The notes under the pieces: generated by a model | Database searches by the model: none | The model's input: the letters and a program-made list of their open reading frames with translations, nothing else | What the model was told of the DNA's origin: nothing | Part shown: positions 11,618 through 14,069 of the stretch, piece by piece | Numbering within the stretch: position 1 is the first letter of the stretch | How the letters are laid out: every line of letters begins with the position of its first letter | DNA from: Nitrospira defluvii | GTDB taxonomy: Bacteria > Nitrospirota > Nitrospiria > Nitrospirales > Nitrospiraceae | Length of the DNA: 64,000 nt | NCBI GenBank assembly: GCA_011525625.1 | Contig: WYAX01000012.1 | Span: forward strand, 372,001-436,000 | Reading direction: 5' to 3' | Program-made: the position numbers and the translations under genes

Positions 11618-12511
11618 TCAAGCCACGTCCTGAGCAATCTCCGCCGGGGGAATGGCCGGAAACACTGTTTGCTCGATGGGGAGAATCGGGGAGAGGTCGA
11701 TCTGCTCGGAGATAGGTCCGAAGCGGAAGGTGTTGAGAAGGGTGGTGATTCGAGGTTCCATCTTGTCCAGGTTCAGGTAGTGAGCCAGTTGCGAGAAAAA
11801 CGGCCCTTCCATTCGCGGTTGCTGAGGGTCAAGTTCCCACGGGTGAAAATACATCACTAACGGATGGCCATTGAGCTCAATGCGGCGCATCAGGCCACAC
11901 AGCGCAGCGAAGGGAAGTAGACGGAAATAGCTTCCACCCGCAATCGGAATTCGCACCCCGCCGAGATTGACCGTAGAAGGAGGAACTTCCCAAATGGGGC
12001 CGGAGGAGGTCTGCCTCACATGATGCCAAGGATCTGAGCCGGGCAGCCCGCAGTGCTCGTGCCGGATGGGAACGAGGCTGGAGTCATAGGTGTACCCTTC
12101 TTCCGCGAGGATCGGAAGAGCCCATGGCGTCTCGCGGGTGATCGTAAACCCTGGGGCTCGGTAGCCTTGAATGGGTGCTCCTGTGAGGTCCTCAAGGAGC
12201 CGCTTGGATTTTCTGACGTCGGCTCGAAACAGTTCCGGTGTTTGAGCCGTGACTAATTCGTGACCGTAGCCGTGAGACGCAATCTCATGCCCACACTCGG
12301 CAATTTGCTTAATCAGCCCAGGGTGCCGCTCCGCTACCCACCCTAAGACGAAAAAAGTAGCTCTGGTTTGATACCTGGCGAGCAGCTCCAACACCTTGCA
12401 GGTGTTAGCAGTGACTCGGCTTTCGAATGCCCCCCAGTGTCGCCGACGGATCGGGGAATCAAATCGCGAGACCTGAAAATGTTCTTCAATGTCGAATGTG
12501 AGGCAATGCAA
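11618..12511 (-). CDS. XrtA-type polysaccharide deacetylase (DUF3473)
   Basis: The 297-residue product starts directly with the NodB-fold motif (LTFDIEEHF) and keeps the second metal motif HEIASHGYGHE, the RAPGFTIT catalytic strand and a C-terminal DUF3473 part (FHPWELDP). In the established family, this deacetylase subtype is encoded with exosortase (PEP-CTERM) exopolysaccharide loci and removes acetyl groups from the exported polymer. Here no exosortase or glycosyltransferase gene is adjacent, so it is a lone member of that system. An AAGGAAC site precedes the ATG. A sigma-54-type promoter lies 135-150 bases upstream. Confidence 0.85.
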   Translation of the reverse strand: MHCLTFDIEEHFQVSRFDSPIRRRHWGAFESRVTANTCKVLELLARYQTRATFFVLGWVAERHPGLIKQIAECGHEIASHGYGHELVTAQTPELFRADVRKSKRLLEDLTGAPIQGYRAPGFTITRETPWALPILAEEGYTYDSSLVPIRHEHCGLPGSDPWHHVRQTSSGPIWEVPPSTVNLGGVRIPIAGGSYFRLLPFAALCGLMRRIELNGHPLVMYFHPWELDPQQPRMEGPFFSQLAHYLNLDKMEPRITTLLNTFRFGPISEQIDLSPILPIEQTVFPAIPPAEIAQDVA

Positions 12512-12645
12512 GGGATCGTTCCTTATGTGTAGGGTTTCGCCTACAAGGCCCTAAGGGATGGTTGCGGCGTTGACGGTGGAGAGGAGGTGCCCAGTAACTG
12601 CCCCTTTCGACCTACTTTGTATACTATGAGTACGCGACGAAGTAA

Positions 12646-12661
12646 AGCAAAGAGTGAGCCA
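12646..12661 (-). promoter_or_regulatory. Sigma-54-type promoter of the deacetylase gene
   Basis: Read on the minus strand, this segment is TGGCTCACTCTTTGCT. The invariant GG and GC are separated by exactly ten bases, matching the -24/-12 consensus TGGCAC-N5-TTGCW at all but one of the conserved positions. The predicted start is near 12636, giving a leader of about 125 bases before the deacetylase ATG. The AT-rich stretch 12661-12700 beyond it includes TATCAAAATGATATG, a near match to an IHF site. Confidence 0.5.
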
Positions 12662-12717
12662 TTATAGTTTCATATATATATCAAAATGATATGAGATCAA
12701 TGGGGAAGGGAATCGGA

Positions 12718-12761
12718 AGACTGTATCGAGAAATCCGATAGACTGTATCCAGCTGGATACA
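12718..12761. promoter_or_regulatory. Tandem TGTATC half-sites with an 18-bp palindrome
   Basis: TGTATCCAGCTGGATACA at 12744-12761 is a perfect palindrome. The ten bases AGACTGTATC occur at 12718-12727 and again at 12740-12749, 22 bases apart (about two helical turns), so three TGTATC half-sites are present. The array lies roughly 80-125 bases upstream of the predicted sigma-54 start, where enhancer-binding activators bind. The rest of the 12512-12822 interval contains no gene that I can see. Confidence 0.5.
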
Positions 12762-12822
12762 CCAATAGGGGATGGATTAAATGTAAGAAAATCGGTAGGG
12801 GCTGGTGGCGATGGAAACCGGG

Positions 12823-14069
12823 TCACGCAGCTTGTTTCTTTCCCTCCATTTCGGCTTGGGGGAGTTGGAGGGGGACGGTAAACCGAAACACCGAGCCGAC
12901 GCCAGGCTCGCTCTCTGCGCCAATGTGTCCTCCCATCAGTTCAACGAGCTGCTTGCAAATGGCCAATCCCAAGCCTGTGCCTCCGTACTTTCTGGTGGTC
13001 GAGCCGTCGGCTTGCACAAAAGGCTGAAACAATTTACTGAACGCGCCGGGCTCAATGCCGATCCCGTTATCGACGACGGAAAACCGGAGATGGGTGACGT
13101 GCGGCTGATCCCCTGTCGATTCGTTGTCCTTGGGGGCTGGAAATTCAAGGCGCTGCTCGGGGGGGCGCTGATCAAGGTCTACATGTACGGTAACGGTCCC
13201 ACGCTCACTGAATTTGATCGCGTTCGCCAGTAAATTGCTGAGGACCTGTTGCAGACGGGTTGGATCTCCGCATAGCACAGGGGGGACATCGTCGGCAATG
13301 TATGAGTTGAGGAGGAGCCCTTTACGCTGCGCCCGCTCTGCGAACAACGCCATGATACGACCGAGGAACGTCGAGAGTTCAAAAGCCAGCAACTCAAGCG
13401 ATAGCTTTCCGGATTCAATTTTCGAGAAATCTAGAATGTCATTGATGATGACCATCAGGGCATCCCCCGAGGTCCGTATTGTTTGGGCGCAATCCAGTTG
13501 TTCGGGTGTCAGATCTGTCTCCAACAGCCAATCGGTCATGCCCAGTACGCCATTCATGGGGGTGCGGATTTCATGACTCATGGTCGCCAGGAATTCAGAT
13601 TTGAGCCTGGCGCCTTCGATCGCCGCATCCCGCGCTTGCGTCAGCGAGGCTTGGCTGGCTCGGAGCTCTTGCAGGACCTGATTGGCGCGCACCATATAGC
13701 GGATGCGGTGAGTCAGGAGCATCGCGTTCAACGGCTTCACGATAAAATCCGTTGCGCCGGCATCGTAGGCTTTCGTGATGGACTCGAAGTCGTCCAGTCC
13801 GGTCATGATCAGGATGGGAGTGTGTTCACCGCCCGGTAGTCGGCGCAGGGCGGCACAGGTAGCAAATCCGTCCATTTCAGGCATCATTACGTCGAGCAGC
13901 ACCACATCCGGTGTACGTTTTCGAATGCAAGGCAGGCGTCACGCCCGTTCTCCGCCTCCTCCACCTCCCATCCCACTTGCTCCAGGGCTTCGCGGGCGAA
14001 CATCCGGATGATGATGTCGTCATCCGTGACCAGGGCATAGGGGGATCGGCCGGATAAGAGGGGATTCAT
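12823..14069 (-). pseudogene. Receiver-histidine kinase, broken by one frameshift
   Basis: The gene starts at ATG 14069 and reads a receiver domain (MNPLLSGRSPYALVTDDDIIIR..., up to GRDACLAFE), then runs into a stop after a further 11 residues. The receiver continues in another frame as KRTPDVVLLDVMMPEMDG, followed by HisKA ([14 protein letters not shown]) and HATPase ([19 protein letters not shown]). Adding one A to the run of four at 13918-13921 restores a single 415-residue protein, so a one-base deletion in a homopolymer is the simplest explanation. The ATG overlaps the stop of the upstream hybrid kinase (ATGA). The downstream part alone could be translated from an internal start at 13905, but would lack the first half of the receiver. 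Confidence 0.8.

Follow-up and report, generated by a model that had tools for sequence, protein, structure and literature searches.

How is an XrtA-type polysaccharide deacetylase controlled when its gene stands outside the exosortase and exopolysaccharide loci for which it is named? The gene in question lies in the window, by which we mean the whole 64-kb stretch of DNA that was analysed (contig C32, 372001-436000; the genome measures 4.6 Mb in 35 contigs). Its product scores 341.5 bits against TIGR03006, above the equivalog cut-off of 276.2, and its neighbours look, by eye, like fatty-acid-synthesis and sensor-kinase genes. The initial annotation of this DNA had placed a sigma-54 promoter with distal dyads upstream of such a deacetylase, and had pointed to the PrsK/PrsR control of exosortase-linked genes as a precedent. 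Our analysis supports this interpretation in part: the promoter, the distal enhancer and the regulon stand, and the link to exosortases and PrsK/PrsR does not. On the strength of sequence comparisons, we consider it probable that the locus carries an enhancer-dependent sigma-54 promoter that belongs to a Nitrospira-wide regulon, with an NtrC-type response regulator encoded on contig C6 (the C6 regulator) as the proposed activator.

The elements of the promoter are collected in Table 1. The -24/-12 element, GG-N10-GC with near-consensus flanks, is the sole match to TGGCNCN5TTGCW across the window, and is weak evidence by itself because 0.44 such matches are expected by chance. A looser search (TGGYACGN4TTGCW, two mismatches allowed) yielded 8 window sites including this one, against 16 expected. 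The sigma factor itself is encoded in the genome, where rpoN scores 420.2 bits against TIGR02395 (cut-off 277.35). The distal 18-bp palindrome, TGTATCCAGCTGGATACA, is beyond chance; no second copy occurs in the window even with three mismatches allowed, and 0.02 sites are expected. The sigma-54 site lies 84 bp downstream of it on the minus strand. The third TGTATC half-site of the proposed array is also present (12722-12727), 22 bp from the full box on the side of the promoter, which is the position where other targets of the regulon have a second box. Order and spacing are thus as first described. Tandem dyads some 80-200 bp upstream of a sigma-54 site, the arrangement by which an NtrC-type enhancer is recognised, occur here as one full box and one half.

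Table 1. Features of the deacetylase promoter region and the gene of the candidate activator. Coordinates are those of the window unless a contig is given.
Feature	Coordinates	Strand	Basis or content
XrtA-system-type polysaccharide deacetylase with DUF3473, 297 aa, TTG start	11618-12511	-	TIGR03006, PF01522, PF11959
Shine-Dalgarno AAGGA	12520-12524	-	Deacetylase leader
Inverted repeat TGTAGG...CCTACA	12528-12545	-	Conserved in alignment; just upstream of Shine-Dalgarno
Conserved stretch 3' of the -12 element: TTTACTTC, then GTATAC (12619-12624)	12615-12645	-	Orthologue alignment
Sigma-54 -24/-12 element TGGCTCACTCTTTGCT (GG-N10-GC)	12646-12661	-	Consensus scan and orthologue alignment
AT-rich spacer, palindrome to GG of the -24 element, 84 bp	12661-12744	-	Length 84-86 bp in 28/28 orthologues
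Promoter-proximal half-site, GTATC on + / GATAC on -	12723-12727	.	Conserved alignment columns
Full enhancer palindrome GTATC-N6-GATAC	12745-12760 (TGTATC-N6-GATACA = 12744-12761)	.	Window scan, orthologue alignment
Candidate activator, orphan NtrC-type response regulator	C6:36963-38339		Receiver, AAA+ sigma-54-interaction and Fis-type helix-turn-helix domains

The spacer also holds the best IHF-like match in the window, TATCAAAATGATA (12679-12691, one mismatch), a match equalled or bettered in 17 of 100 shuffled spacers. The best match carries one mismatch in 7 of the 28 orthologues, two in 19 and three in 2, although a TTGA core at this position is nearly invariant in the alignment. The putative IHF site does no better than shuffles in most orthologues and is the weak part of the proposed arrangement.

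Conservation separates this promoter from a chance arrangement. A search of 61 genomes for the deacetylase returned matches in 40, and a close-type deacetylase is present in 29/29 genus genomes, the 28 relatives being 77-97% identical. Candidatus Nitrospira defluvii is among these orthologues, and, judged by this protein, the nearest named relatives belong to Nitrospira. Upstream DNA could be compared at 28 of the 29 genus loci, the remaining one (L052) ending before the upstream region. At all 28, the arms of the palindrome are invariant and its six core bases vary widely, GG-N10-GCTTTACTTC is invariant at the sigma-54 site, and the distance from palindrome to GG is 84-86 bp despite a largely diverged spacer sequence. 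Because all 28 keep the arms, the sigma-54 core and the spacing, we take the promoter to be real beyond chance. The alignment columns of the half-site are at least 90% conserved, and the last two are invariant.

This arrangement does not extend to deacetylases of the family at large. A scan of named genomes gave 57 deacetylase loci, and a perfect palindrome was found at 18/18 close-type loci with upstream DNA (a nineteenth, L244, begins inside the gene) versus none of the 38 more distant loci (at most 62% identical), two of which offer just 12 or 205 bp of upstream sequence; one of the 38 has a site with one mismatch. The palindrome is therefore specific to this orthologue and is not a property of the deacetylase family.

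The stretch immediately 3' of the -12 element is conserved as well as the promoter, with TTTACTTC and TATAC invariant in 28/28 orthologues, and these blocks may represent an overlapping promoter or operator. One could envision that the conserved block is accounted for by a sigma-70-type promoter, TTTACT-N17-TATACA, which would overlap the supposed -12 element and would draw on the fact that the two blocks are kept as faithfully as that element. However, a consensus scan returned neither a sigma-70 promoter nor a terminator, and a sigma-70 promoter leaves both GG-N10-GC and the palindrome at its fixed distance unexplained. We regard it as very unlikely to be the full account of this region; it could coexist with the sigma-54 promoter as a basal promoter. 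Closer to the gene, the inverted repeat beside the Shine-Dalgarno sequence could be a translational element, and a search of Rfam over 12300-12900 gave zero matches.

If the deacetylase were controlled as its family name suggests, the palindrome would be a PrsR box and the regulon would be the PEP-CTERM/exopolysaccharide set. Beyond the membership of the deacetylase in the XrtA-system family, there are precedents for this idea: proteobacterial PEP-CTERM genes have a motif assigned to PrsR near a sigma-54 site (PMC1569441, accessible text), and transcription of pepA is RpoN1-dependent according to the accessible part of another report (PMC9850573). However, neither regulator reaches its cut-off in this genome, where the best protein scores 477.2 bits for PrsR (TIGR02915; cut-off 502.6) and the best kinase 145.7 bits for PrsK (TIGR02916; cut-off 300). 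The palindrome had been expected near other exosortase-linked genes. The genome has a single exosortase locus (exosortase C3:424221; PEP-CTERM proteins C3:420639 and C3:421707), and no palindrome was found at up to one mismatch in the 16 kb that cover it (L089). It is also absent from a 6-kb stretch around a second TIGR03006-like deacetylase gene (C31:1554; L205:1473-2387, minus strand), which is about 60% identical to the first and lies among apparent polysaccharide genes. Moreover, the length and half-site of the PrsR motif are unlike those found here, and most of the named regulon targets have no exosortase connection. PrsK/PrsR control is thus highly improbable, and we reject the exosortase/PrsR link for this genome on the absence of PrsK and PrsR matches over cut-off and of a palindrome at the exosortase locus. 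The case shows that a deacetylase may bear the name of the exosortase system and still answer to a quite different regulator.

The suggestion that the regulon could be found by its motif was fruitful. This genome has 24 perfect GTATC-N6-GATAC sites, and 29/29 genus genomes have 14-38 each. In the same 29 genomes the reversed palindrome occurs 0-2 times per genome; a second control, GTTAC-N6-GTAAC, also occurs 0-2 times, and its reverse 0-8 times. We grouped the 24 sites into 19 clusters, and those of a relative (G023) into 21. A second box with at most two mismatches lies 20-23 bp away in 14/19 and 16/21 clusters, respectively, whereas six bins of control offsets were all empty in this genome and held 1, 0, 0, 0, 0 and 0 in the relative. 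Outward-facing sigma-54 sites with at most two mismatches, GG and GC being required, were found 60-200 bp off in 8/19 and 6/21 clusters. Random positions in the same loci gave an expectation of 0.2 in each genome, a contrast that is favoured by the fact that these positions are mostly coding DNA. At three mismatches the counts rise to 11/19 and 13/21 against 1.2 and 1.3 expected, and 8 of the 19 clusters have no outward sigma-54 site even at this threshold.

Most clusters lie outside frames of at least 150 aa (14/19 in this genome and 17/21 in the relative), and some 10-11 regulon loci are common to the two genomes. One perfect site, C2:5999, is inside a coding frame and is probably a chance occurrence; it is nevertheless counted in the 19 clusters. 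Two boxes with one mismatch (C2:223495 and C2:223523) were set aside as lying inside a coding frame.

A search of the literature for the motif led to RhpR of Pseudomonas syringae, for which DNase I footprinting and EMSA establish precisely this sequence, GTATC-N6-GATAC, as the binding site in the accessible part of the study (PMC4191427), and not to the regulon described here. RhpRS orthologues are described as widespread (PMC6426608, in part), and a further report gives a different motif in its accessible text (PMC5715377). The palindrome could then serve a two-component regulator of the RhpR kind whose action does not involve the sigma-54 site. Against this, tandem boxes 20-23 bp apart and outward sigma-54 sites 60-200 bp off occur far above expectation, and palindromes adjoin operons for enhancer-binding proteins in other genomes. 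We find an RhpR-like regulator extremely unlikely here, and the identity of the two sites is probably convergence.

What would a sigma-54 regulon of this kind control? Genes downstream of the clusters encode proteins that match, in Pfam, vanadium-chloroperoxidase/PAP2 (haloperoxidase-like), tyrosinase, T6SS Tle1-like (two genes), subtilase, TonB receptor, patatin, PilZ, SNase and reprolysin-like peptidase families; a Pfam match at E 0.01 was obtained for all but 7 of the 20 target proteins scanned. The Tle1-like and patatin targets are lipases, and the XrtA-type deacetylase is a further member. The PilZ and SNase assignments are weak because more than 600 bp separate the box from the start of either gene. 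In other genomes FadL-type outer-membrane proteins recur, in one case directly downstream of a box and a sigma-54 site (L126) and in another in the operon of the activator (G040, L140). Sites of the regulon appear to have as neighbours mostly genes whose products are secreted or lie in the outer membrane, rather than exosortase genes. This distribution fits the argument, made in the accessible part of PMC3162934, that control of the bacterial exterior is a general role of sigma-54.

Some members of this set stand out on their own account. A large protein of at least 805 aa (L079:2686-5100, plus strand; L118:1-1938, minus strand) has no Pfam match, is conserved between the two genomes compared above and has a box pair and a sigma-54 site. 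Two regulon proteins (L072:1776-2390 and L106:1228-1824, both minus strand) have a start that resembles, by eye, that of PEP-CTERM proteins; the former is without a Pfam match, its C-terminus is rich in Arg and Lys, and the matches listed for it include none to PEP-CTERM. Boxes at L085, L130, L139 and in the window adjoin apparent genes for sensor histidine kinases, and these kinases may feed an orphan regulator. In the window this kinase gene lies upstream of the deacetylase (12823-13947, minus strand), and the N-terminus of its product may be broken because the receiver-domain match (C32:385567-385947) has an in-frame TGA.

The genome encodes 29 enhancer-binding proteins (TIGR02915 above 280 bits, none over the cut-off of that model), and it was the adjacency of palindromes to activator genes in other genomes that led us to the C6 regulator. 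In G040 and G053 the operon of an enhancer-binding protein is preceded by a box or box pair, and in G037 and G051 by a box pair; in G030 a box pair is 2.4 kb from the activator gene, with an oppositely oriented gene between. All of these activators end in a recognition helix of the LQRTYLARLIKQ type, and among the 29 enhancer-binding proteins of this genome only the C6 regulator has the helix LQRTYLARLIKQ. Near the start of paralogues in G014 and G028 there is a perfect box. A perfect box or pair was present at 7/23 family loci versus 0/28 other activator loci (Fisher p 0.002), a comparison that includes four family loci selected in the knowledge of the site (L139, L140, L141 and L206); the count without them is 3/19.

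The distribution of the C6 regulator is consistent with this choice. An orthologue is present in 29/29 genus genomes, a match passes the same threshold in 20/32 others, and the helix type is kept in 30/30 activator loci fetched. Outside the genus, the 20 genomes with the activator average 6.95 palindromes versus 2.5 in the 12 without it (p 0.005; p 0.02 per Mb after subtraction of the control). One genome (G049) has a box pair and no activator match at the threshold, and several have the activator and few boxes; some of the absences may be false because no more than 27 candidates per genome were scored in the initial screen. In this genome, no palindrome was found in the 18 kb read around the C6 gene, no kinase gene was recognised by eye beside it, and none of the 29 enhancer-binding-protein genes has a box pair beside it.

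We infer from the helix and from the neighbourhoods in other genomes that the C6 regulator is the likely activator. The same sigma-54 regulon might instead answer to another of the 29 enhancer-binding proteins, or to the C6 regulator together with a paralogue, given 28 further activators in the genome and paralogues with a helix of the same type in G014, G021, G023 and G028. The lack of any box pair or perfect box at the other activator loci, and the confinement of the matching helix to the C6 protein, make this unlikely.

With the C6 regulator as activator, regulation of the deacetylase could proceed as follows. The regulator would be phosphorylated by one or more kinases in response to a presumed signal, and would assemble on tandem GTATC-N6-GATAC boxes, here the full box and the half-site 22 bp away. 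It would then contact RpoN polymerase bound at TGGC-N7-TTGC across a loop of 84 bp, and its hydrolysis of ATP would open the promoter. The deacetylase, acting on a putative polysaccharide substrate, would be switched on together with other secreted and outer-membrane enzymes. A bolder proposal, which we offer as speculation and hold to be rather doubtful as it stands, is that this orphan enhancer-binding protein is a Nitrospirales hub that reads pairs of GTATC-N6-GATAC boxes and turns on extracellular enzymes of attack or matrix remodelling (lipases, proteases, tyrosinase, haloperoxidase and deacetylase), possibly fed by several sensor kinases encoded next to its targets.

The regulon and its candidate activator are the new part of this work. 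No Nitrospira sigma-54 regulon is described in the papers that literature searches on sigma-54 regulation in this genus gave, judged by titles and abstract openings, and PMC12316311 makes no mention of Nitrospir-. The motif, the target list and the candidate activator would make control of the cell exterior in these nitrifiers directly testable.

The system proposed here can be compared with three that are known. Like other NtrC-type enhancer-binding proteins, the C6 regulator combines a receiver, a sigma-54-interaction AAA+ domain and a Fis-type helix-turn-helix; unlike them, it has a distinctive recognition helix and no kinase gene recognised beside its own. The inverted-repeat consensus is identical to that of RhpR, which is autoregulated, but RhpR is not described as a sigma-54 activator, and no tandem pairing at 20-23 bp is mentioned, in the accessible part of that study (PMC4191427). 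A parallel in architecture is the PrsR element of PEP-CTERM genes, reported for Proteobacteria only, in which an activator motif, sometimes repeated, precedes a sigma-54 site by tens of base pairs (about 63 bp) at genes for the cell exterior (Haft et al., 2006, PMC1569441, accessible text). That element is a 17-nt motif ending in TTTACA, whereas the element here is GTATC-N6-GATAC, and the exosortase locus of this genome is without it.
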